Source: Bacteroidota bacterium (GTDB lineage: Bacteria > Bacteroidota > Bacteroidia > Chitinophagales > UBA10324). Taken from it: a DNA stretch of 56,862 bases. Shown one piece after another: positions 18,985-56,862 of this stretch. The position numbers and the translations under genes are program-made. Each line of letters opens with the position of its first letter. Positions within the stretch are counted from its first letter, which is position 1. Location of the stretch: positions 1 to 56,862 of the forward strand of contig BJGQ01000018.1 of NCBI GenBank assembly GCA_014190575.1. Direction: 5' to 3'. The notes below the pieces were generated by a model. The model was not told the origin of the DNA, searched no databases, and worked only from the letters and a program-made list of their open reading frames with translations.

Positions 18985-20406
18985 ATGAACAGAAATAAAA
19001 TTTTGATTGCTTCTCTTATATTTTTTCAGTTCGAACTGAACAGTGAATGTTCCAATGCACAAATCAATTTCACACAGTTTCAAGACCAACATGCTTTTTC
19101 ACAAGCATCGCAGTTCATGCCTTCGCTCATTGGTGAAGGAATCAGAAAGTACAAGATTACTTTTTTTGATTTTTATGGAGCTGCGGCAAACAGTTCGTTT
19201 TCATTGGCAGAATTAGATAAACTCAGTTCAACAAAGACCTGGAGCAACAACACTGTTGATTCGCTTTTAAATAATCTGAAAACCGAAAATACAATTTATG
19301 CCGTCGTTAATTTTTCGTTCCTGAATGTTTCGTTCAACATAAATAAGCACAAAAGAAAATTTCTTTCGTTCGCAATCGGTACTCGCGAACGATTGGATTT
19401 GAATATGCTTTACAGTCACAATTTGATTTCTCTTTTATTGAAAGGCAACAAACAATTTGCAGGAGAAACGGTGAGCCTCAGTCCGCTCTCCATTAATTTT
19501 TTGCAGTGTACAGATTATTATTTCGGAATGAAAACGCTTCTGAGTTTTAAAGTCGGTAAAAAAACTTTATTGAAATTAAAACCCGCACTTCAGTTTCATT
19601 ACCTAACGAGCATGGCAAATGTGTATTCAAAAAAATCTAACCTTGCATTATATACGCAACAAGATGGACGGGAATTGAATTTGAATTATGATTATGATTT
19701 ATACATCGCCTCACCCGGAAATAACATGGGCACACACGGAGTTTTCGGAGATGTAACAGTTAAGGCCATCACAAAAAATTTATTCAGCGGAGTTGGAAAT
19801 GGAAAATCATTTGATTTTGGTTTGGGTGCTGATGTGAATGACTGGATTAAAATAAACATGGCTGTAACAGATGTTGGCGCCATCTCTTTTAAAAATCATG
19901 CTGTGAATTATTCAGGCAATGGCGAAATAAAATTTGATGGATTTTCTACCAACTATACCGAAACACAAAACAGTTTTAACAGTCAGGCAGATTCAATGCT
20001 TTCACTATTAAAACCGAATTTTGAAAATGCGCAATACAAAGCGCCACTTGCCACAAAATATTTTACCAATGTATCTTTCAATCTTTTGAAGAAAAGAAAG
20101 AAAAACGGAATGGTTTATTTCCGGCACACTTTCAATATCACTTACATAAAAGGATTTAAAAATTATCTGAACGCAACTACCACTCCGCTCATGGTGCTTG
20201 GCTACAATTACAGTGTCGGAAATATTTTAAACTTCGGAATCAGTGCTGCGAAAGGTGGCACTGCTCAAACAAGTGTTGGTGCCAATCTCTCTCTACAATT
20301 CAGTCATTATCAGTTGTGGTGCAATTCCAATAATTTGCTTCCGTTTATCGGCAAGCAAAATGCAAAAGGCATTGATGGTGCAGTTGGAATGGGGATGGAG
20401 TTTTGA
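18985..20406 (+). CDS. Probable outer-membrane beta-barrel protein, DUF5723-like
   Basis: The protein has 473 residues. The signal is MNRNKILIASLIFFQFELN, with processing perhaps near CSNAQ. The mature protein alternates amphipathic strands, with GLGADVNDWIKINMAVTDVGAISFKNHA and GMGMEF at the C terminus ending in Phe, as expected for a beta-barrel. The general plan resembles DUF5723 proteins of Bacteroidota; this is my recollection and not a search result. Directly after the lipoprotein gene (gap nine bases), it may be the barrel partner of that lipoprotein. It converges with ctaA. Confidence 0.68.
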   Translation: MNRNKILIASLIFFQFELNSECSNAQINFTQFQDQHAFSQASQFMPSLIGEGIRKYKITFFDFYGAAANSSFSLAELDKLSSTKTWSNNTVDSLLNNLKTENTIYAVVNFSFLNVSFNINKHKRKFLSFAIGTRERLDLNMLYSHNLISLLLKGNKQFAGETVSLSPLSINFLQCTDYYFGMKTLLSFKVGKKTLLKLKPALQFHYLTSMANVYSKKSNLALYTQQDGRELNLNYDYDLYIASPGNNMGTHGVFGDVTVKAITKNLFSGVGNGKSFDFGLGADVNDWIKINMAVTDVGAISFKNHAVNYSGNGEIKFDGFSTNYTETQNSFNSQADSMLSLLKPNFENAQYKAPLATKYFTNVSFNLLKKRKKNGMVYFRHTFNITYIKGFKNYLNATTTPLMVLGYNYSVGNILNFGISAAKGGTAQTSVGANLSLQFSHYQLWCNSNNLLPFIGKQNAKGIDGAVGMGMEF

Positions 20407-23388: not shown

Positions 23389-26300
23389 TTACCAAATCAA
23401 TGTAACATCACCCTTCAGAATAATTATATCACCCTTCATGGTTTCAACTTCTGCATAATAAACATACACGCCGGAATTCCCAGGTGAATTTTTGAAAGTG
23501 CCATCCCATCCCTGATAAATTCCATTTGATTCAAAAACTTTTTCACCAATTCTATCATAAACCTTCAGGTGAACATTTTGAAGGCTTCTGCCATACACAT
23601 AAAAAATATCGTTCACACCGTCGTTGTTCGGTGTAAAGGCATTTGGAATAAAATAATTAATGTTCGGAACCACAATAAATTTTCCGAAAATAAAAGTATC
23701 AGTGCATCCAATGTTGTCGTAAGCAATCAGCATCACACTATAATTCCCTGAATCAACATAAGTATGAGATGGCGAAAATATTGTGCTGCTGTCGCCATCA
23801 CCAAAAAACCATTTATAGGAATTGGCATAAACAGATTGATTAGTGAAATTGAAAGTCGCTTCTTTTAATTCTGTTACGGTTTCACTTTCGGGATTTGCAA
23901 AAAATTTTGCAACCGGATTATTCAACACTTTAATAAAATTCGGTTTGGTTAAAGAATCAATGCAACCCGAAGAAGTAGTGACAATTAACTTAACCGTAAA
24001 ATTTCCGGGGGCATAAGTGTGAGTTGGATTTTCATCAGCACTTGCTCCATCATCACCAAAAGTCCATTCGAAAGAATTTCCAAGCACACTCTGATTTATA
24101 AAAGAAGTAGTAAACGGATCACAACCCAAACTATCTGTTACGGTAAATAAAACTTGGGGTAATAAATCAATTAATACTATTTGCGAAATCACAGAAGAGG
24201 TACAATTATTTTCTGTCACTGAAAGAGTGATTGTATCAATTCCTGAATTTAAAAAATGAATCAAATACGGACCAATTCCTGTTCCGGAATTAATTGTTCC
24301 GCTATCAAAATTCCAATTGAATGTTGCCCCCGAAGTAGCTGTTCCATTGTAGGTTATCAATGCATTCTGATCAGGACAAATTACGGAAGGAGTAACAATA
24401 AAGTCGGAAGTCGGAACAGGGTTCACAATAATGCTATGTGTGGTTACCGATGAAGGGCAACCATTTTCTGAAACTGTAAGAGTGATATTGTAAGTCCCCG
24501 CAGAATTATATTTTATTTGATAAGGGCCTTGACCGATACCACTTAAAATTATTCCACCACCAAAATTCCATGTATAAGTTCCGGTTGCAGTTGCACTTCC
24601 TGCATAAGAAATTAAGGCGCTATCAGATTGGCAAATTGCAGCAGGTAAATTAAATGTTGAAGTTGGAATCGGAAAAACAATTATGGAATGCGAAGTAGAG
24701 GGAGAAGTACATCCATTTTCAGTTACAGATAATGATACATTGTAATTGCCAGCATTTATCCAGCTTAAATTATATGGGCCTTGTCCCGGGCCGCCAGTTG
24801 AAATTGCACTTCCGAAATTCCAATTGTAAGTTGCATTTGCAAGAGATAAACCTGTATAAGTTGCTATTGAATTATCTCCGGCACAAAGGGATGGCGGTGT
24901 AAAATTAAATGATGATGATGGTATTGGATGAACAATTACACTGACAGTTGAAGCGGATGAGGCGCATCCATTCACTGAAGCTGTAACAGAATAATTTCCT
25001 GAATGTGTAACGATAGAATTAGTTCTTGTTGCATTTTCTAAAGCAGAAGTGAATGCTAAAGGGCCAGTCCATGAATAAATTCCACCGGCAATATTTCCTG
25101 CATTCAATGTAATTGTTTGCCCTGCACACAAAGGAGAATTGCTTGTTGCTCCCGGTGCCAATGGAACAGGTTTAACTAAAACAACAATGCTTGATGCCGG
25201 ACTTGTGCAGTTAAATACTTTTACTGTTGCATTGTATGTTCCACTTGCAGCAAGGGTGGTTGTTGGTATTGTTGGATTCTGTAATGCAGAAGAAAAACTG
25301 TTTGGTCCTGTCCATGCAAAAATTCCATTCATCACATTTGCAGCATTCAGTTGTAAAGTTTGTCCGGCACAAATCGGACTGTTCGATGATAAAACCGGAA
25401 CAGCCGGAATCGGATGAATAACTACATTGGTTGAAACTGTATTACCAACACAACCTGCTAATGTCATGGTGAGCAAATAGCTTCCCATATTATTGGCAAC
25501 AGATACATTATTGATAACAGGATTTTGTTGATTGGATGTATATCCATTCGGACCTGTCCAAGAATAGGATGAACCTGCAACTGGGGTTGTTGTCAAATTT
25601 AAATTTTGTCCATCGCATAGTGGCCCATTATTAATTGGAGTTGCTGGTGGCGAAAGGTTGATGACCGCATTTGTTGATGCTGGCAAACTTGTACAGCCTA
25701 CCACAGTTACTGTTGCATTATAAATTCCTGAATTGGCAAATGGAACATTTGTGATAACCGGGTTTTGTAATAGAGAATTAAAGCTATTTGGTCCTGTCCA
25801 ATGAAAAGTTCCGCCAGCAACATTTTGTGCTGTAAGATTTAAAGTCTGACCCGAACACATTGGCGCATTATTGCCAATAATAGGCGAAGCTGGAATTAGA
25901 TTGACAACAACAGTTGTATTCGACGGATTTCCCAGGCAACCATTGGCTGTAGCAGTCACAGTAAATATTCCTGCATTCACAACTGATGAAATAGGAATGG
26001 TTGGATTTTGTTGAGTAGAACTAAATCCACCCGGGCCAATCCATGAATAAGTACCGCCAGCAATAGTGCTTGCAAATAAATGAATCGCTTGACCATCACA
26101 AGTTGGACTGTTGCTAGTTGCGATTGAATTCGGAGTTGGATAAATAATTACACTTGTAGTAAGTGGTAAGCTATTACAGCCATTCACATTTATTGTTAAA
26201 GAATAAATTCCGGCATTTGCAATAACCGAATTATTAATAATAGGATTTGAGAGAGTAGAAGAAAAGCCATTCGGGCCAGTCCATGAATAAGCAGCACCTG

Positions 26301-28713
26301 CAACATTGGCTGCACTCAAATTAAGAGGAACCCCTTGACAAATTGGAGCATTGCTCGTTGGAGTTGGAGTAAGAGGAATAGGATTTAAAACAACTGTAGT
26401 TGTTGATGGCGCACTTAAACATCCAAGTTTAACAATGATGCAAGAATAAACTCCGGCATCGGCAGGAACAGTTGAATTGATAATTGGATTTTGCAATGAT
26501 GATGTAAATCCATTCGGCCCTGTCCACTGATAAGTTGCATTGTTAATTGTGGCAGCATTTAATTGCAAAGTGGCTCCTACGCAAATCGGACTTGTATTTG
26601 AAAGAACAGGTGCGGCAGGAACAGGATTAATAATTACAGTTGTTGTTCCTGCATTTGTATTTGTACATCCATTTGCAGTTACAGATAAAGTATAAACTCC
26701 GCCATTAGCATTTGCAGCATTTGGTATAACAGGATTTTGTACTGAAGAAGAAAATCCATTCGGACCAATCCAAGAATATGAACCTCCAACAATTGTTGCA
26801 GCAAATAAATTTATAGGAGTTCCAGGACAAACTGCACTGTTAGATGTTGGAGCGGCAACGGGTATTGGATAAATAACAACATTGGTTGTGAGTGGTAAAC
26901 TGTTGCAACCGTTCACTTGAATGGTTAAAGAATAATTTCCTGCATTTGCAGTTGTTGTATTTGGAATTGTTGGATTCTCTTGAGTAGAAGAAAAACCATT
27001 CGGACCGGTCCATGAATAAGTAGCCCCTGCTACTAATGCAGCAGTTAAGTTTAATGGATTTCCGGGACAGAAAGGTGCATTGTTAAAAGGAGTTGGTGCA
27101 GTGGGGCTTGGATATAAAACAACATTTGTTGAAGATGAAGCACCTGTGCAACCGCTCACTGTAATTGTACAGAAATAATTTCCGGCATTCGCGGCGACAG
27201 TATTATTAATAATTGGGTTTTGAAGTGAAGATGAAAATCCATTCGGCCCGGTCCATGAATAGGTTGCAGCTGCAACTGGAACTACAGAAAGTTGTAATGG
27301 AACGCCAACACAAATGGGAGCATTGCTCGAAATAACTGGTGCAGCAGGAATTGGATTAACAAAAACAGTGGTATTACCTGCATTGGTGCTTGTGCATCCA
27401 AGCGCGGTAACTGCTAAATGATAAACTCCTGAATTTGCAACAGTAGCATTTGTAATAACGGGATTTTGAAAAGAAGAAGTAAAACCATTCGGCCCAGTCC
27501 ATGCATAAGTACTTGGAGTAACAGGAACAGCAAATAAATTTATAGGTGAACCAACACAAACAGGACTGTTGTTGGATGGTGTAGCAATTGGAATTGGATT
27601 AACAGTTACAATAGCTGTTGCCGTATCAGCACATGGATATCCTTTATTTACAATTAGCTTCACAGTATAAGTTCCGGCTGTGTTGTAGGTATAATTTGGA
27701 GAAAATAAATGTGAAGTATCTGCATTTCCTGCTGCTCCGAAATCCCAATAATAATAAGTTGCGCCAGTGCTTGTATTTGAAAAAGTAAGAGGCGAACCCT
27801 TGCAAACGGTAAATGTGGGCGGAATTATAGCAACCACATTTGTTATGCATTGAACCACATTGAATTGAAAATCTCTATAATGTGTGCTTAACAAAACTCC
27901 ATTGCGATATTCTTTCACACATATGCCAACCATAAATTGCCCTAGCGTGTTTGGAATGCCCGTGATCATACCGGTTACAGAATTTATACTTACTTGTGGT
28001 GAGCCTCCAACGGGATTGTTAAATGTAAAACCTCCGGCAAAAGGCACAAGAGAATATGGAGGTGGAGATGCAGGAAGAGGATTGGGATTAGTTTGACTAC
28101 CCCCGTTAAATGGGCTATAAAAACTATAAACTAATTGGTCACCATCGATATCTGTTGCAGAATGATTAAAAACCAAGGGCTCGTTTACACAAATACAAGT
28201 TGGTGGAAAGTTAACGAATTCAGGGCTACTATTTCCAGAAGCAACTGCAGAACCAGGTATTGTTGCCATATAAGTAGCTCCGTAATTATCTGATGGATTA
28301 ACCACATTTAGTATGGTGCCATTTCTGCAACACTTTTGAAAAACAATTGTGTATCCACCTGCAATCGGAGGTAATAATTTATTAGTTGTGTAAATTGCTT
28401 CTTCAACACAAATATTTGGAGGTGTGGTTAAACAAATGTTTCCGGTGTTATTTGGAATTGGAATTGGTCCCGGAAAAGTTACAGAAACCGAATCAACCAA
28501 CGCAAGTGTTGTTGAATTAAAAAAGTAAAATTTTATGGAACTTGTAAATGGGGTGGAGGAATTGCAATCTCTATATAACTCTAATTTTATTTGATAAACA
28601 TTACTTCCTAAATACTTATAAGTTAACTCTCCTCCCACAATGTGAGTTGCTTTAGTAGAAATTGGATAAAGCCAAAATGCAACCACAAAAAATAGAAGGA
28701 GGATTTTCTTCAT
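23389..28713 (-). CDS. Giant PKD/Ig-like repeat surface protein with gliding-motility (CHU_C) C-terminal domain
   Basis: The protein has 1774 residues. Order: Sec signal (1-22); an N-terminal domain with conserved cysteines (THIVGGELTYKYLG, RDC, KCCRNG); one PKD domain (about 300-370); eleven Ig-like domains of about 81 residues (about 372-1265), each with a [YF]xW[TI]GP core and one Cys pair; five further PKD-like domains (WNFG, WTFGDD, WFFGDG); and a C-terminal CHU_C/gliding-associated sorting domain starting with FIPNAFTPNNDGVND. The last domain is recognised by T9SS (type B). It should be exported and displayed as a long fibre-like adhesin. The PKD and Ig blocks are close repeats, so assembly error cannot be excluded. 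Confidence 0.92.
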   Translation of the reverse strand: MKKILLLFFVVAFWLYPISTKATHIVGGELTYKYLGSNVYQIKLELYRDCNSSTPFTSSIKFYFFNSTTLALVDSVSVTFPGPIPIPNNTGNICLTTPPNICVEEAIYTTNKLLPPIAGGYTIVFQKCCRNGTILNVVNPSDNYGATYMATIPGSAVASGNSSPEFVNFPPTCICVNEPLVFNHSATDIDGDQLVYSFYSPFNGGSQTNPNPLPASPPPYSLVPFAGGFTFNNPVGGSPQVSINSVTGMITGIPNTLGQFMVGICVKEYRNGVLLSTHYRDFQFNVVQCITNVVAIIPPTFTVCKGSPLTFSNTSTGATYYYWDFGAAGNADTSHLFSPNYTYNTAGTYTVKLIVNKGYPCADTATAIVTVNPIPIATPSNNSPVCVGSPINLFAVPVTPSTYAWTGPNGFTSSFQNPVITNATVANSGVYHLAVTALGCTSTNAGNTTVFVNPIPAAPVISSNAPICVGVPLQLSVVPVAAATYSWTGPNGFSSSLQNPIINNTVAANAGNYFCTITVSGCTGASSSTNVVLYPSPTAPTPFNNAPFCPGNPLNLTAALVAGATYSWTGPNGFSSTQENPTIPNTTTANAGNYSLTIQVNGCNSLPLTTNVVIYPIPVAAPTSNSAVCPGTPINLFAATIVGGSYSWIGPNGFSSSVQNPVIPNAANANGGVYTLSVTANGCTNTNAGTTTVIINPVPAAPVLSNTSPICVGATLQLNAATINNATYQWTGPNGFTSSLQNPIINSTVPADAGVYSCIIVKLGCLSAPSTTTVVLNPIPLTPTPTSNAPICQGVPLNLSAANVAGAAYSWTGPNGFSSTLSNPIINNSVIANAGIYSLTINVNGCNSLPLTTSVIIYPTPNSIATSNSPTCDGQAIHLFASTIAGGTYSWIGPGGFSSTQQNPTIPISSVVNAGIFTVTATANGCLGNPSNTTVVVNLIPASPIIGNNAPMCSGQTLNLTAQNVAGGTFHWTGPNSFNSLLQNPVITNVPFANSGIYNATVTVVGCTSLPASTNAVINLSPPATPINNGPLCDGQNLNLTTTPVAGSSYSWTGPNGYTSNQQNPVINNVSVANNMGSYLLTMTLAGCVGNTVSTNVVIHPIPAVPVLSSNSPICAGQTLQLNAANVMNGIFAWTGPNSFSSALQNPTIPTTTLAASGTYNATVKVFNCTSPASSIVVLVKPVPLAPGATSNSPLCAGQTITLNAGNIAGGIYSWTGPLAFTSALENATRTNSIVTHSGNYSVTASVNGCASSASTVSVIVHPIPSSSFNFTPPSLCAGDNSIATYTGLSLANATYNWNFGSAISTGGPGQGPYNLSWINAGNYNVSLSVTENGCTSPSTSHSIIVFPIPTSTFNLPAAICQSDSALISYAGSATATGTYTWNFGGGIILSGIGQGPYQIKYNSAGTYNITLTVSENGCPSSVTTHSIIVNPVPTSDFIVTPSVICPDQNALITYNGTATSGATFNWNFDSGTINSGTGIGPYLIHFLNSGIDTITLSVTENNCTSSVISQIVLIDLLPQVLFTVTDSLGCDPFTTSFINQSVLGNSFEWTFGDDGASADENPTHTYAPGNFTVKLIVTTSSGCIDSLTKPNFIKVLNNPVAKFFANPESETVTELKEATFNFTNQSVYANSYKWFFGDGDSSTIFSPSHTYVDSGNYSVMLIAYDNIGCTDTFIFGKFIVVPNINYFIPNAFTPNNDGVNDIFYVYGRSLQNVHLKVYDRIGEKVFESNGIYQGWDGTFKNSPGNSGVYVYYAEVETMKGDIIILKGDVTLIW
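24915..27600 (-). repeat. Tandem array of eleven Ig-like domain repeats inside the giant adhesin
   Basis: Eleven units of about 243 bp (81 residues) occur in tandem, each with a P-(I/V)-C-x-G start, [YF]xW[TI]GP and NP(I/V)I core, and a GC near the end. They group as A-B-C / A-B-C in the first six units: A ends with GCTxTNAGxTTV, B has LQL and SLQNPII, C has GCNSLPLTT. Units 7-9 keep traces of the same order. The family identity is inferred from motif pattern; boundaries are approximate. Confidence 0.8.
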
Positions 28714-28928
28714 TTCAATTTCAATAGTACACCATTTATCTCATAAATTTGTATTCAATCCGATTAGTATTTTGCCAATCTTACGCTGCTATTACTCCCG
28801 CCTTCTTTTGTTATCGGTAAATCTGATTTTGAACTAATCAAGAATACTTTTAAAACAAGAAGATAAAAAAATAAACGGGTGAAAATCCATCATTCATAGG
28901 TGAATGATTAAACATATAAAAATTTGTG

Positions 28929-29001
28929 TGGTGAGACCCAGATTTGAACTGGGGACGCAAGGATTTTCAGTCCTTCGCTCTACCAACTGAGCTATCCCAC
29001 C
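28929..29001 (-). tRNA. tRNA-Phe (GAA)
   Basis: The minus strand folds as a complete cloverleaf: acceptor GGTGGGA (29001-28995) pairs with TCTCACC. The D arm is GCTC AGTTGGTA GAGC. The anticodon stem AAGGA/TCCTT encloses CTGAAAA, giving anticodon GAA. The T arm is CCCAG TTCAAAT CTGGG. The discriminator is A. CCA is not encoded and must be added post-transcriptionally, as is common in Bacteroidota. Confidence 0.95.
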
Positions 29002-51450: not shown

Positions 51451-54400
51451 TTATTGGGCGAGGGTAAAACGGATTGTTACACCTGCATTTGTGTATCGAA
51501 TTGGATATGATGCAGAAGTGGCTGGAATGCTGTATCGTTTGTCGACAAACAAACGAATGTTCAATCGATTGCTTACCATGTATTCAGCTGAAGGTGAAAT
51601 ACTGATTGTTTTCATTCCCTGTGTTGGCGTACTTACCGCCTGATCTAATTTGTAGTTTGTTGTTATGTTGTTCGAAACAGAAACATCGCACTTCAGATTC
51701 AAATCATTTTTTAATCGTTTTTTCTTACCCTGAATTTTAAAAGGTATAGGTGCATTTTTCCATTTGTACCCTAATCCAACAGTTATTTCAGAAGTTCGTG
51801 ATTCAACTAACTGATAATCGAGAAAACTCATTGCAAGATTCCTTCCTTTTTTATATTCAAACTTTGTACTCACATTATTTTTCCATTGTGCATCAATACC
51901 AAATAATGGAGAAAACTGCTCAGTAATACCAATGCTCGGGATATCATAAAAACTTATGAAGTTCCCCGAAACAGAATCTATTTTACTCGGAAGGTTAATT
52001 CCATCTTTAATATTTCCATTAAAGTCCAGTGCAGAACTAAATGAATTCATAGTGAGATTGGAAGTATAACCATGTGAAATGTTTAAGGAATTCCAGATTT
52101 TATGTGCCCACTTCATTTTTGTTAATCCGTTGTAAGAAACTCTCCAGTTCGGAGCCGGAATTCCTTTGAAGTATTGATACAACCCAACTGAGTTTACATC
52201 TTTTCCTGCATACGCTGCAAGAAAGGCCGGTATCAAAACATCTTGTGAATAGGGTCCATAACCGTTTGCAAAATTAGAATTGAAACTGCTATCCTGAGGA
52301 TTGTAATAGGAACCAGCTGCCTCAGGATTATTTTTTGCCAATCGTTGTGAAACTGTTTGGCGATAGGATTCAAACAAATTGAATGTTGGGGATTTTCCGC
52401 TGTCAGGTTTTTGAAAAGCAGTGTTCCATGCTATAAATGATACACTGTACTGGCCATAGGCCTGCTGGTTCAAGTGCTGATAACCCAAATCAGTATTCTT
52501 GAAAAATTCAGTTGTGTTGTATGAATAATTTTTCATGAAATTCACATCAACATTCACATCTTTCAACGGTTCGAATTGTGCGCGTGCTGTAATGTTTCGA
52601 TTGTAATTTTGAATGAATTGATAATTCATTGCAGTATCAGATGTTATCCATCCTTTTTTTGCAGCATCATTCAACCAATTGGTATCCGGCTGCATTCCGA
52701 AAACAAAATCCCAACCAGGAGCAGTTTTTTTCAAATCTTGCCCCACATTTTTGGCTTTGTATACAAACCCCGGAAGTGTTGTTCCCTTTGTTTGCGCATA
52801 GGTGAATGAAATTTTCTTTAAACTGATGATTGGTCGAATAATAAATGATAATCCACCTTTTGCGGTAGGTTGATTATTTTTCTTTTGATCAAGTAAATCC
52901 TTTGTGTTTTTATTGTCCTTACCATTTTTATCATCACCTTTTTGTTGATTAACAGGAGCCGTATTTGTATTGTATGGTTTAAGAAATTTCCATTTGTTAT
53001 ACAAATTCCTGAAATTTAAATCACTATTGAAGTTGATGTTCTGATCGTTGTTAATTTGATTGCCAAGCGGATTATCAACGAGCCTGATTTTTTCAATTTG
53101 TGTTCCATTAAATGTTGTATCACTTGCTAATGGCAAAGCAAGCCAATCGTATTCAGCTCCATATTTTACAGTTCCTGTTATCCAATCTAAAATCGGAATT
53201 TTATTTATAGGAAGTGTATAAGCAAGATTTGCTTTATGGTTGTAATGTGTTGTGCGACCATAATTTTTTATGTTATTCCATACCGAATCCTTTTCCGGCT
53301 TGGTATCAATGCGGCCAGTGTCTTCGTCAATTCGTGTATTTGTTACAGCATTAAAATCAAGATTCAGTGATTTAGCTAATTCAAACTTCACCCCATAGAA
53401 TCTATCCCATGTCCAGAATTTATTATAAGTTGGATCTGCCGGAGGGGAAAGTGGGTCCGTTTCTCTCATTCGTGACTGACCGTACTGACGATCCATGCTA
53501 TTCCGGAAGGAAATATTTGTTGGAAGAAAATTGAAATTAATGTCGCGAACCGCTTTAAGATACTTTGGTTTTGTTCCAATTAATTTATTGAAAGGAGAAA
53601 TGAATTTTGATTTTCCAGGATATGTGTAACCCAATTCACCATGATATTTTTTGGTTAGATCGCTCTGAATAATTGGATTGTGCTTATAGGTTTGAGTATA
53701 TGCGTAAGTAGTATTCCAGTTTTCTATTCCATAAATATGCGGCTTGGCGGTTTTGCTGTTGTTCACTCGGCGCACATTTGTAAAATTTAAACTTTTAATA
53801 CTTGTGAAATCCTGTGCTACACTCCTGAGCGAATCGCGCGTGTGCGTACTTAAACTTGGGTTGTTCAACTTATCTTTTAAAAGCACATCCAATTCATAAG
53901 GATCATATTTAGGATTGCTCATTGCATTAGATACTCCGATATACATAGGTAATTGCAACCCGATGCTTTTTGGTAAAAATTTTCCAAGCTGAAATGTTCC
54001 AGAAGCATCGTACTGAAAGAAGTTATCTTTATAACGCTCATTAAGTTTTTGTTCCAGTGAACCAAATCCAATTGTATGCATGGTTCCACTTAACGAAACA
54101 TTTCCAAGGTCTGCAAGTTTCACATCAACTCTTCCGAGCGCAGCGTATCCACCCTGTTCGTCAAAACCGCTTAGTCGCAATTCGTTAAACCAAAGCTCTG
54201 CGCACTTGGCGGTTCCATCATCAGTATCACCACCAGGATAACCACTACTTTGCTTTGGATTGTGTACTCCAAGCATTGCAACTTTTGCTAAACCCAAATC
54301 CGGATTTCCAACGATTGTAATTCTATCTCCGTTTGGCAATACCAATGAATAAGGAGCAGTAAATGAAGCACCAGCAGCATCTCTTGCTTGTTTTATATCA

Positions 54401-56862
54401 GTCAATTGTGAAAGTGTAATTTCAAAACTATTTGCAGTAGGCCAAACATTAGCACCTGTACTATCATAGTAAACGGATGGAGTTAATGGTTTTTCATACT
54501 CATAATAGTTGCTGACAAAATCAGACCCCAATCTCATGAATGCTGTAAGATCACCATAATTAAATGTGTAACCGTTACCTGCATTCTCAGCATGTACAAA
54601 CATTTTCAAAACCTTAAATGTTCGCAAATCCAGATTCAAGCTTTTATAAACAGCACGGGAATCACCATCTTGTAAATTACAAACCTGAACACTTAGTGAT
54701 TGTTCATTTTGTAAAAGGGTTTGTACTGACCCTAATTGTTGTTCGCGCTGAATTCCGGGAGGCATTACATAATTAATTGGTTGCCGCTGTGAATTTTCTT
54801 CCAGCGAAACTGAACCGACATTAAAAAATGTTGAACCGCTATTATCATCCGGAATGTACTCACCGGGTGTTTGCAAACTGAATTGATACTTGCGCCATTG
54901 ATTACGCACAAATTCTAATTTAGCAAAACGAAGATCAACAGCAGTATCAAATCCAGCCATATAAATTCTGATAAACCGAATGGATTTAAAATCCTGAATG
55001 CCACCTACTTTTTTTGTCCAGTCTTCAATTGGAATTTTTACTTGTATCCATCTTTCCTGACCCAGTAAACTTCCATTACAATCAACATTAGCAGTTACAA
55101 TATCGGTAATGTGATTTGGGCCAGTGTTTACTAAATCATTTGGATTTAATTTAACTTCATATTCAAAATATTCTTCAGTTTCGCTAAGTGTATTATCGCG
55201 ATTCAAATCTTCCGATTCAGGAATATTAGTAGCAGCTTTTGATGTAAGATCTCCTGTTGTTGAAATTGGTGAGTTGCCATCAGGATTATTATATTTTTTA
55301 TATCGATCAAGAATTCCAATGTTGTTATTGTCTAAGTCATCACCTAAATAATAATGATAATTATCGCCTGCCGGATCTTTACTTGCAGCTATGTAATATG
55401 GAGATGTAGTACCTCCATAATTTAATTCAATTTGTTTCAGGTATGCAGCATCAAAATTAATTTCAGAATTATCGGCAATCCCGGTTGGATTAGGATAAAT
55501 AAAATCACCAACACCGTCATAACCGACATCTTGATATTGCCGAGCCGATTCGCTATTGTCAAATGAATTTGTTGGCGGAATGTTTACCGGTATTACTGAC
55601 CATTTTGAATAGGCAAGGTTTGCGGTAGCTGTATCTCCATTTGGAGGCAACCCATTTTCAGTAAATAAGCGACCATCTTTTAAGATATCTTCTGAAATAT
55701 TTCCAAGATCAATATAAAGCTTGCCGTATTGATTACCTCCATATCCTTCAATGTATGGATCAAGCACCCAGAATTGTATGTATTCAATATTTGCCTGTTC
55801 AAAATCATTGTAATCAATACTTCGCATTATTCCTCCCCAGTTTTTAGCTGGATTTTTCAAATGAATTCTTCCTAAATCATCAATTCCGTTAAAAGCATTT
55901 GCATCGGCAAGAAAATTATAGGGGCCTTTAACATTCGGTTCAAAATTTAAATCAAAGGTTGGAAGATTGGTTGGATAGCCGGATTGTTGTTGCTTATTTG
56001 GAAACAATTCTTTTTCAATAATTTCTCTGGTATAAAATGAACATTGCTCAGAATCATTTTTAGCAATGTTTGGAGGAGTAGATGAAAGATCTCTCAAGAA
56101 CAAAGGATCAATTGAATACCACGAAAGTTTTGCTCTCTTATATCCATAAGGTAACGAATCATTCAAAGTTGCCTCGGGCAGAAAAGGATTTGGATTTTTT
56201 TCATCATCAGCCGGAGCACTTGCCAGTACCCAACTGCTAAATGGAAATTTCAAATCATATGTACTTTGTGTTCCTTCAAAATCATCGATATAAACCTGTC
56301 CGGCTGTTCCTTTTCCAATTGCTTTACTGTGGCCGGGATCGAGCCGAGCAACTTCTCCGCTAATTGTTATTGTTGATTTTTCTTTTGTGTCAAGCAATGG
56401 AAGTTTATCAACCAATCTTGTAATTAATCCTGAATTGGTTTGCCAACTTCCATCTAATCCATAGATTGAATTGCTGATTGGATCATCGCCAACATTTAAC
56501 TTCCGAGTATATGGTCTTTCTGATAAGTGAAGATAAGTTCCGCCTAATTTAAAATGATCATTTATATAATAATCAGCGCGTGTTCCGAATAAAGTTTTTG
56601 TTGTGAATCCGAAAGTGGCATTGTTTTCAAACGAAACATTTATCGGTGCGCCTGAATTCATGATTCCCTGATTGATAATTTTCAATCTTCCTAAATTATA
56701 ATCAACGGTATAGTCAACATTTTCCTGCAACACCTGACCGCCGGCAGTTACCTTAACAGATCCTTGTGGAATGTTGAATGCTCCCAATGAAACATCGGAT
56801 GATGACGACCCTTTATATGAACCTTTAATTGTGTACCGATCAAATTCAGGAAATTGCAGCGC
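51451..56862 (-). CDS. sprA: SprA, giant outer-membrane translocon of the type IX secretion system (5' end off window)
   Basis: SprA (Sov in Porphyromonas) is the roughly 36-stranded barrel through which T9SS cargo crosses the outer membrane. The 1804 visible residues are the C-terminal part. The frame stays open to the window edge and does not start at the in-frame TTG at 56787, which sits inside a continuous SprA-like segment (DRYTIKGSYKG, SLGAFNIPQGSVKVTAGG). Family features include DPGHSKAIGKG and the ending YTNAGVTIRFTLAQ. Full-length SprA usually has well over 2000 residues, so several hundred are missing here. The gene has its own terminator. It is essential for secretion of the sorting-domain proteins in this window. 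Confidence 0.95.
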   Translation of the reverse strand, partial: ALQFPEFDRYTIKGSYKGSSSSDVSLGAFNIPQGSVKVTAGGQVLQENVDYTVDYNLGRLKIINQGIMNSGAPINVSFENNATFGFTTKTLFGTRADYYINDHFKLGGTYLHLSERPYTRKLNVGDDPISNSIYGLDGSWQTNSGLITRLVDKLPLLDTKEKSTITISGEVARLDPGHSKAIGKGTAGQVYIDDFEGTQSTYDLKFPFSSWVLASAPADDEKNPNPFLPEATLNDSLPYGYKRAKLSWYSIDPLFLRDLSSTPPNIAKNDSEQCSFYTREIIEKELFPNKQQQSGYPTNLPTFDLNFEPNVKGPYNFLADANAFNGIDDLGRIHLKNPAKNWGGIMRSIDYNDFEQANIEYIQFWVLDPYIEGYGGNQYGKLYIDLGNISEDILKDGRLFTENGLPPNGDTATANLAYSKWSVIPVNIPPTNSFDNSESARQYQDVGYDGVGDFIYPNPTGIADNSEINFDAAYLKQIELNYGGTTSPYYIAASKDPAGDNYHYYLGDDLDNNNIGILDRYKKYNNPDGNSPISTTGDLTSKAATNIPESEDLNRDNTLSETEEYFEYEVKLNPNDLVNTGPNHITDIVTANVDCNGSLLGQERWIQVKIPIEDWTKKVGGIQDFKSIRFIRIYMAGFDTAVDLRFAKLEFVRNQWRKYQFSLQTPGEYIPDDNSGSTFFNVGSVSLEENSQRQPINYVMPPGIQREQQLGSVQTLLQNEQSLSVQVCNLQDGDSRAVYKSLNLDLRTFKVLKMFVHAENAGNGYTFNYGDLTAFMRLGSDFVSNYYEYEKPLTPSVYYDSTGANVWPTANSFEITLSQLTDIKQARDAAGASFTAPYSLVLPNGDRITIVGNPDLGLAKVAMLGVHNPKQSSGYPGGDTDDGTAKCAELWFNELRLSGFDEQGGYAALGRVDVKLADLGNVSLSGTMHTIGFGSLEQKLNERYKDNFFQYDASGTFQLGKFLPKSIGLQLPMYIGVSNAMSNPKYDPYELDVLLKDKLNNPSLSTHTRDSLRSVAQDFTSIKSLNFTNVRRVNNSKTAKPHIYGIENWNTTYAYTQTYKHNPIIQSDLTKKYHGELGYTYPGKSKFISPFNKLIGTKPKYLKAVRDINFNFLPTNISFRNSMDRQYGQSRMRETDPLSPPADPTYNKFWTWDRFYGVKFELAKSLNLDFNAVTNTRIDEDTGRIDTKPEKDSVWNNIKNYGRTTHYNHKANLAYTLPINKIPILDWITGTVKYGAEYDWLALPLASDTTFNGTQIEKIRLVDNPLGNQINNDQNINFNSDLNFRNLYNKWKFLKPYNTNTAPVNQQKGDDKNGKDNKNTKDLLDQKKNNQPTAKGGLSFIIRPIISLKKISFTYAQTKGTTLPGFVYKAKNVGQDLKKTAPGWDFVFGMQPDTNWLNDAAKKGWITSDTAMNYQFIQNYNRNITARAQFEPLKDVNVDVNFMKNYSYNTTEFFKNTDLGYQHLNQQAYGQYSVSFIAWNTAFQKPDSGKSPTFNLFESYRQTVSQRLAKNNPEAAGSYYNPQDSSFNSNFANGYGPYSQDVLIPAFLAAYAGKDVNSVGLYQYFKGIPAPNWRVSYNGLTKMKWAHKIWNSLNISHGYTSNLTMNSFSSALDFNGNIKDGINLPSKIDSVSGNFISFYDIPSIGITEQFSPLFGIDAQWKNNVSTKFEYKKGRNLAMSFLDYQLVESRTSEITVGLGYKWKNAPIPFKIQGKKKRLKNDLNLKCDVSVSNNITTNYKLDQAVSTPTQGMKTISISPSAEYMVSNRLNIRLFVDKRYSIPATSASYPIRYTNAGVTIRFTLAQ

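Follow-up and report, generated by a model that had tools for sequence, protein, structure and literature searches.

Duplication of a three-domain block in the eleven-unit immunoglobulin-like array of a putative type IX-secreted surface protein from a freshwater Bacteroidota bacterium

We analyzed a stretch of 56,862 nucleotides (nt) from a freshwater Bacteroidota bacterium (Chitinophagales, UBA10324; assembly GCA_014190575.1, contig BJGQ01000018.1, positions 1 to 56,862), hereafter the window, which carries on its reverse strand (23389..28713) a long surface-protein gene with eleven immunoglobulin (Ig)-like domains in a row. The first six of these domains, units 1-6, derive from the copying of one three-domain block as a whole. 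In combination with the domain content of the gene and its orthologues in related genomes, this makes a coherent history very probable: a protein secreted by the type IX secretion system (T9SS), whose units 1-6 go back to a single 729-bp A-B-C block, duplicated in tandem before five species of the genus separated, followed by stasis of the array.

Two copies of an A-B-C block

The eleven units extend from position 27594 down to 24919, in agreement with the initial annotation, which had placed an array of eleven domains at 24915-27600. Their lengths follow the order 82-81-80, again 82-81-80, and then 81-80-82-81 amino acids (aa) plus the last unit. All features described below for this gene lie on the reverse strand. 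Block 1 (26866..27594) comprises unit 1 of type A (82 aa, 27349..27594), unit 2 of type B (81 aa, 27106..27348), and unit 3 of type C (80 aa, 26866..27105); block 2 (26137..26865) repeats this order with unit 4 of type A (82 aa, 26620..26865), unit 5 of type B (81 aa, 26377..26619), and unit 6 of type C (80 aa, 26137..26376). Both blocks measure 729 bp, and the offsets between units 1 and 4, 2 and 5, and 3 and 6 are exactly 729 bp each, a value estimated at about 728 bp (3 x 243) for units 3 and 6 in the earlier annotation. The corresponding register of 243 residues is gap-free from about residue 366 to about residue 680, as a mean over four of the five species. The type-specific motifs proposed at the outset were recovered for A (GCTSTNAG in unit 1, GCTNTNAG in unit 4) and C (GCNSLPLTT in units 3 and 6), while for B both LQL and SLQNPII are present in units 2 and 5 but LQL also appears in unit 10.

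Within the window alone, the three pairs 1-4, 2-5, and 3-6 share 63%, 62%, and 74% of their amino acids. Mean aa identity across the array is highest for units three positions apart (lag 3, 52.4%), compared with 47.9% at lag 1 and 47.4% at lag 2 (permutation p 0.022 for aa, 0.037 for nt). The comparison was extended to five orthologous arrays, i.e., the window and the loci L051-L054, leaving out L055-L065 of the same set of 15 loci. Averaged over these orthologues, protein identity of the pairs amounts to 64, 62, and 72%, with an excess among lags 1-3 at lag 3 only (p 0.005 aa, 0.004 nt). The expectation that units three apart should be the closest therefore holds on average, and neighboring units do not on average reach the similarity of lag-3 units, with the pair 2-5 being marginal.

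On the level of single units, every one of units 1-6 has its reciprocal best partner three positions away, in protein as well as in DNA (five-species mean), with column-bootstrap shares of 0.94-1.00 in five units and 0.61-0.62 in unit 2. Typing by a leave-block-out scheme, in which each block was typed from the other one, was calibrated on 685 units of other arrays; the fractions of this null set scoring at least as high were 0.004, 0.07, 0, 0.003, 0, and 0 for units 1 to 6. In the protein tree, the pair 3-6 is recovered with support values of 98/96 (starred), 2-5 with 90/83, and 1-4 with 80/67; the DNA tree recovers 1-4 with 98/91 and 2-5 with 100/99 (both starred), and 3-6 with 72/90. Constrained protein trees grouping neighbors as (1,2)+(4,5) or each block as a clade, (1,2,3)+(4,5,6), were rejected by the approximately unbiased (AU) test (p 0.008 and 0.004, respectively). 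Reciprocal partners, starred pairs, and the rejection of these groupings together bear out the block duplication that had been suggested for units 1-6. A further shared trait concerns the B units (2 and 5), all 10 copies of which across the five species carry a third cysteine at column 61 of the alignment, absent from each of the 45 copies of other units. Judging by its YxC motif, we take this position to be probably that of the F strand in canonical Ig domains. In one genome alone (G003), unit 2 carries an additional cysteine at column 22, a possible partner of the one at column 61.

Several observations weigh against the block duplication or its early date. After correction for the choice of lag, the p value of the window alone rises to 0.10, and the other four orthologues yield 0.07, 0.12, 0.013, and 0.028; a single sequence such as that of the window is thus insufficient to settle the triplet. 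The pair 2-5 is the weakest of the three, as seen from the null fraction and the bootstrap share of unit 2 given above, and on nt level in the window unit 2 is nearer to its neighbor unit 3 (67%) than to unit 5 (65%). In the DNA tree, unit 5 is nested inside unit 2 on weak branches, which at face value would date this pair within the genus. The presence of LQL in unit 10 deprives this motif of exclusivity for the B units. For the region of the Ig units, the output of Tandem Repeats Finder contained no array. Identical residues are encoded by identical codons at a rate of 0.543 in the three pairs and 0.512 in neighbors within units 1-6; with synonymous sites near saturation, these add little to the evidence for the pairs. 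Finally, the alignment comprises 83 columns, so that deep forks are weakly resolved.

Age of the duplication and stasis of the array

The gene is present in five of the six genomes of the genus, the window's own included, each time with 11 units at the same spacing. For the sixth genome (G001), none of the matches listed exceeded 37% identity to the array. The named records with orthologous arrays are the Chitinophagaceae metagenome-assembled genomes (MAGs) RH-23may17-1171 (84% identity) and RH-14apr17-97 (79%). Among 16 genomes of the family, matches at E<=1e-20 were obtained in eight, of which six represent the genus, and outside the genus none of the listed matches exceeded 47% identity. 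In addition, the units of other arrays (best 40 arrays) were compared by eye with the eleven units, revealing no ordered match.

The orthologous arrays differ by at most one residue of insertion or deletion. Mean orthologous identity per unit amounts to 77-89% and thereby exceeds that of every paralogous pair, including the three pairs of the duplicated block (62-72%), which argues that the duplication predates the split of these species. Consistently, the protein tree gathers the orthologous copies of every one of the eleven units into a separate cross-species group. By the Nei-Gojobori method (NG86), the window array compared with its four orthologues shows nonsynonymous distances (dN) of 0.08-0.13 and synonymous distances (dS) of 0.70-1.18, pointing to purifying selection on the array, while dN between paired units is 0.20-0.32. 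Owing to saturation at this range of dS, dating the duplication by synonymous sites gave no information. Since the species split, the array has been maintained without change in copy number and without homogenization of its sequence.

Based on these data, we propose that a single in-frame tandem duplication of the 729-bp A-B-C block would have given rise to units 1-6, the likely route being unequal recombination or replication slippage between similar domain-coding repeats. This event would have preceded the divergence of the five congeneric species sampled here. Thereafter, each unit appears to have been inherited vertically under purifying selection, with copy number held constant and no homogenization among units, whereas units 7-11 would stem from other, older or separate duplications, the order of which is not assignable with confidence.

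Origin of the C-terminal units and alternative histories

The remaining units are unit 7 (25894..26136), unit 8 (25654..25893), unit 9 (25408..25653), unit 10 (25165..25407), and unit 11 (24919..25164). In the initial annotation, units 7-9 were thought to retain diverged traces of A, B, and C in this order, with drift at the C-terminal side of the array; neither view was upheld. Measured against the 685 units of other arrays, the type margins of units 7, 8, and 9 are ordinary (null fractions 0.23, 0.13, and 0.37) and their best types are A, C, and A. Unit 8 stands out only at the type-diagnostic sites, where it scores as C (8.4 of 17, null fraction 0.003). Orthologous identity is 80-88% in units 7-11 compared with 77-89% in units 1-6; the tail accordingly drifts no faster, and its resemblances are either older or obscured.

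Against the same null set, the type margin singles out unit 11 as C-like (null fraction 0.004) and unit 10 as B-like (0.039); the diagnostic sites gave 0.012 for unit 11 as C and 0.069 for unit 10 as B. Neither these values nor that of unit 8 at the diagnostic sites carry a correction for five units and three types. If each null unit is scored by the best margin it attains for any type, the fractions reaching at least the margins of units 7 to 11 are 0.41, 0.60, 0.79, 0.18, and 0.08, and in view of the last two values the resemblance of units 10-11 to B-C is no more than suggestive. The versions of the typing disagree on unit 8 (B vs. C) and unit 9 (C vs. A): an earlier profile test had assigned units 7, 8, and 9 to A, B, and C with shares of 0.60, 0.57, and 0.55. 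By protein identity, the best partner of unit 7 is unit 4 (bootstrap share 0.65) and that of unit 9 is unit 3 (0.79). At most, unit 7 can thus be called weakly A-like; the type of unit 8 differs between the protein tree (B) and the diagnostic sites (C-like), and that of unit 9 between the protein tree (A) and identity (C). Units 8 and 10 are sisters in both trees (84/82 for protein; 95/94, starred, for DNA). A break-point test for hybrids left behind by the deletion of one unit was not significant for unit 8 as B/C (shuffle p 0.27 and 0.22) or for unit 9 as A/C (p 0.13-0.15); units 10 and 7 reached p 0.024 and 0.026, respectively, in this test, values that we gave no weight, as six tests were run.

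A strict period of three across all eleven units is rejected by the AU test (p 0.031), yet not by the Kishino-Hasegawa (0.078) and Shimodaira-Hasegawa (0.42) tests. Among further constrained trees, the arrangement ABC ABC ABC -BC trails the best tree by 4.1 log units (AU p 0.39), and a tree keeping units 1-6 apart from units 7-11 trails it by 10.9 (AU p 0.30). The tail as a single clade gave p 0.057 under another model and 0.41 on DNA.

From these comparisons we lean toward the tail being derived from typed blocks as well, with one loss. In its most explicit form, repeated doubling of the triplet would have produced four blocks, ABC ABC AB- ABC, with one C lost between units 8 and 9, a possible though rather doubtful history. 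Its full constraint comes without any likelihood cost (AU p 0.78), and the unconstrained protein tree by itself groups units 1,4,7,9 (92/81) and 2,5,8,10 (88/90). Units 10 and 11 have the appearance of B and C, and a 279-nt repeat family joins unit 11 to units 6 and 3. Those deep protein groupings are unstarred, however, and the DNA tree contains neither of them, yet without rejecting them. Moreover, unit 9 is nearest by identity to unit 3, a C unit, whereas this scheme makes it an A; unit 8 carries C-type diagnostic residues, and the break-point test offers no significant support for reading it as a B/C hybrid.

Alternatively, units 7-9 could represent a third, decayed A-B-C block to which units 10-11 were added, which we regard as unlikely. 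The early profile assignments and the closeness of unit 7 to unit 4 and of unit 9 to unit 3 fit such a block, and the corresponding tree (1,4,7/2,5,8/3,6,9) survives the AU test (p 0.38), but it falls 7.0 log units below the best tree. The ordinary margins of units 7-9, with unit 8 scoring as C and unit 9 as A, do not fit, nor does the missing excess within units 7-11 at any lag of 1-3 (lag 3 p 0.68 aa), and the decay finds no counterpart in a faster evolution of the tail.

A more fundamental objection would be that no block was ever duplicated, the units having been added one by one and the lag-3 likeness stemming from gene conversion or from convergent positional demands. Because synonymous sites are uninformative, likeness brought about by selection on the protein is hard to exclude, but this account is very improbable given that two of the three pairs are starred in the DNA tree and that all three share a common offset and a common length pattern; the eleven separate cross-species groups in the protein tree further argue against any recent conversion. 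Short-read assemblies can collapse or expand arrays, but an assembly artefact in this binned genome is practically negligible as an explanation, with the same 11 units found in five separate genomes at near-identical length and with units about 44-71% identical in DNA (window), which is too diverged for collapse.

The protein, its relatives, and the wider occurrence of block growth

In its 1774 aa, the product of the open reading frame combines Ig-like and PKD domains and ends in a T9SS sorting domain of type B. An N-terminal region (aa 1-298, 27820..28713), assigned to no Pfam family among the stretches listed, begins with a putative signal peptide, recognized by eye, whose residues 2-14 are helical in the structure model. 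Its poor-confidence, beta-rich model (mean predicted local distance difference test score, pLDDT, 64.8) had no match in the PDB at E<=0.001. It is followed by a first PKD domain (about aa 299-373, 27595..27819; PF00801 at residues 304-365, the best stretch, given that the Pfam listing holds only the best one per family), the Ig array, further PKD-type domains (about aa 1266-1683, 23665..24918; PF00801 and PF18911 with 8 and 5 stretches, boundaries set by eye), and the C-terminal sorting domain (23389..23664). The latter scores 63.1 bits with PF13585 (CHU_C; cut-off 27) and 48.3 bits with TIGR04131 (NCBIfam, type B T9SS sorting domain; cut-off 35), as known for type B T9SS cargo. PF19081 (Ig_7, "CHU_C associated") reaches 131.9 bits over the whole protein in 13 stretches (cut-off 27.3), while unit 11 is the only unit of this gene to pass on its own (31.8 bits; genome scan, 150 of 246 candidates scored). 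Units 1-3 were modelled as three Ig folds (mean pLDDT 89.9, predicted template modelling score, pTM, 0.65), and Ig-domain chains make up most of the PDB matches listed.

Within the window, SprA/Sov of the T9SS translocon, the one part of the system searched for, is encoded at 51451-56787 (TIGR04189, 1809 bits). This gene is truncated by the contig end, with 1777 aa covering profile positions 600-2318 of 2319. The neighborhood further includes a tRNA-Phe gene just upstream of the Ig-array gene on the same strand (28928-29001), CtaA (COX15) downstream of it beyond two other genes, which was also recognized by sequence in L054, and a DUF5723 protein at 18985-20406. The 3.2-Mb genome holds 39 CHU_C domains above the cut-off (44 matches) and 98 Ig_7 matches (150 of 246 candidates scored), several of them in an open frame of 6579 aa on contig C1, so that its set of T9SS surface proteins is extensive for a genome of this size.

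The nearest solved relative, in sequence and in fold, is the Ig array of GhpA, grappling-hook protein A of Aureispira sp. CCB-QB1 (PDB 9flp, 9fls, 9flu-9fly, 9g8b), described in a review as forming a hook, in heptameric form, used in ixotrophy (PMC11205867). The whole-protein phmmer comparison gave an E value of 0, with the best stretch at residues 425-1276 of our protein and a weak match of 16.5 bits at the C-terminal sorting domain. In seven of eight fragments the fold agrees with a template modelling (TM) score of 0.70-0.80 relative to the query, and with 0.50 for 9g8b, at 27-39% identity. The homology of the Ig arrays does not extend to full length: GhpA comprises 5898 aa, so that the protein studied here is less than a third as long, and none of the stretches reported covers its residues 1-332. 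VipB of the type VI secretion system (T6SS; PF05943) was detected in none of the six genus genomes and, of 14 controls, only in E. coli, a search that a divergent Bacteroidota T6SS could escape. Length, the unmatched first 332 residues, and the VipB result rule out that the protein is GhpA itself.

Judging from its homology with GhpA and other Ig arrays, the protein most likely serves as a surface stalk or fibre. The predicted layout, from the N-terminal region through PKD, eleven Ig_7 domains, and more PKD to the type B sorting domain, would suit a type IX-secreted surface protein in which a stiff chain keeps the N-terminal region off the cell. Type B cargo may be anchored via PorP-like proteins (PMC9143113). 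Periscope proteins likewise build bacterial surface stalks from tandem folded domains, but their adjacent SHIRT domains share 82-100% protein identity and the repeat number varies between strains (PMC8201768), in contrast to the DNA identities of about 44-71% among units in the window and the 11 units in all five species here.

In order to place the array among its relatives, 100 loci besides the window and its four orthologues (two sets of 80 and 20) were scanned with a hidden Markov model (HMM) of the array. After removal of exact duplicates and of two named copies of this gene, this yielded 62 distinct runs of at least seven units in 52 loci. These runs are non-independent, as there are several per locus at times and some arrays are near relatives. 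One lag was significant after lag correction in 29 of the 62 runs (p<0.05, uncorrected over arrays), namely lag 2 in nine, lag 5 in nine, lag 3 in seven, and lags 6 and 1 in two each. A block period of 2, 3, 5, or 6 is thus found in 27 of 62 other arrays at p<0.05, where about three would be expected by chance, and block growth is the rule among the significant arrays. The Ig_7 arrays of the window's own genome contained no run of at least seven units under the array HMM, showing that the survey is biased toward arrays near the query.

Individual loci of the survey display other periods. Four loci from Saprospiraceae MAGs (L113, L119, L124, L131) have a strong five-domain period, with 46-54% identity at lag 5 in the best runs compared with 26-29% for neighbors (corrected p<0.001). 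A record of an uncultured Aureispira (L121), the grappling-hook genus, shows a period of three and six domains (lag 3 32.7%, lag 6 34.9%, lag 1 21.8%). Two records titled as Acidobacteria MAGs (L068, L105) also carry such Ig arrays and are likely to be mislabelled or misbinned contigs.

As a single case, the duplication is ordinary. Domain repeats frequently grow through the gain of several domains in a single step, and the autocorrelation approach used for repeat proteins in general by Bjorklund et al. 2006 (PMC1553488) is the same as ours and led to the same result; the comparison differs in that the expanded unit is three domains in this array and 2, 3, 5, or 6 in its relatives. Neither this array nor a three-domain period in Ig_7 arrays was the subject of any paper among the matches listed in the open-licence literature. 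Titin offers a further parallel of typed domains in fixed order via block duplication: its A-band super-repeats follow the order AC-ABC-ABC of fibronectin type III (FnIII) domains with Ig domains (PMC10665226). These super-repeats occur in many copies and are discussed there as a reflection of the thick-filament period, unlike the two clear copies here, which have no known ligand period.

A more far-reaching, and quite improbable, idea would assign A, B, and C to fixed distinct places in a multi-copy fibre, comparable to the assembly of GhpA chains. The A-B-C order and the number of eleven would then be held by selection, and the third cysteine confined to B would mark a contact point. If true, such a fibre would be a bacterial counterpart of the titin super-repeats, and its period more than a relic. 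The value of the array lies in providing a dated example, in which a block duplication older than the species of one genus was followed by a fixed copy number under purifying selection, unlike the variable-length Periscope proteins. Beyond this genus, the survey hints at recurring periods of 2, 3, and 5 in Ig stalks, for which there may be a structural reason.
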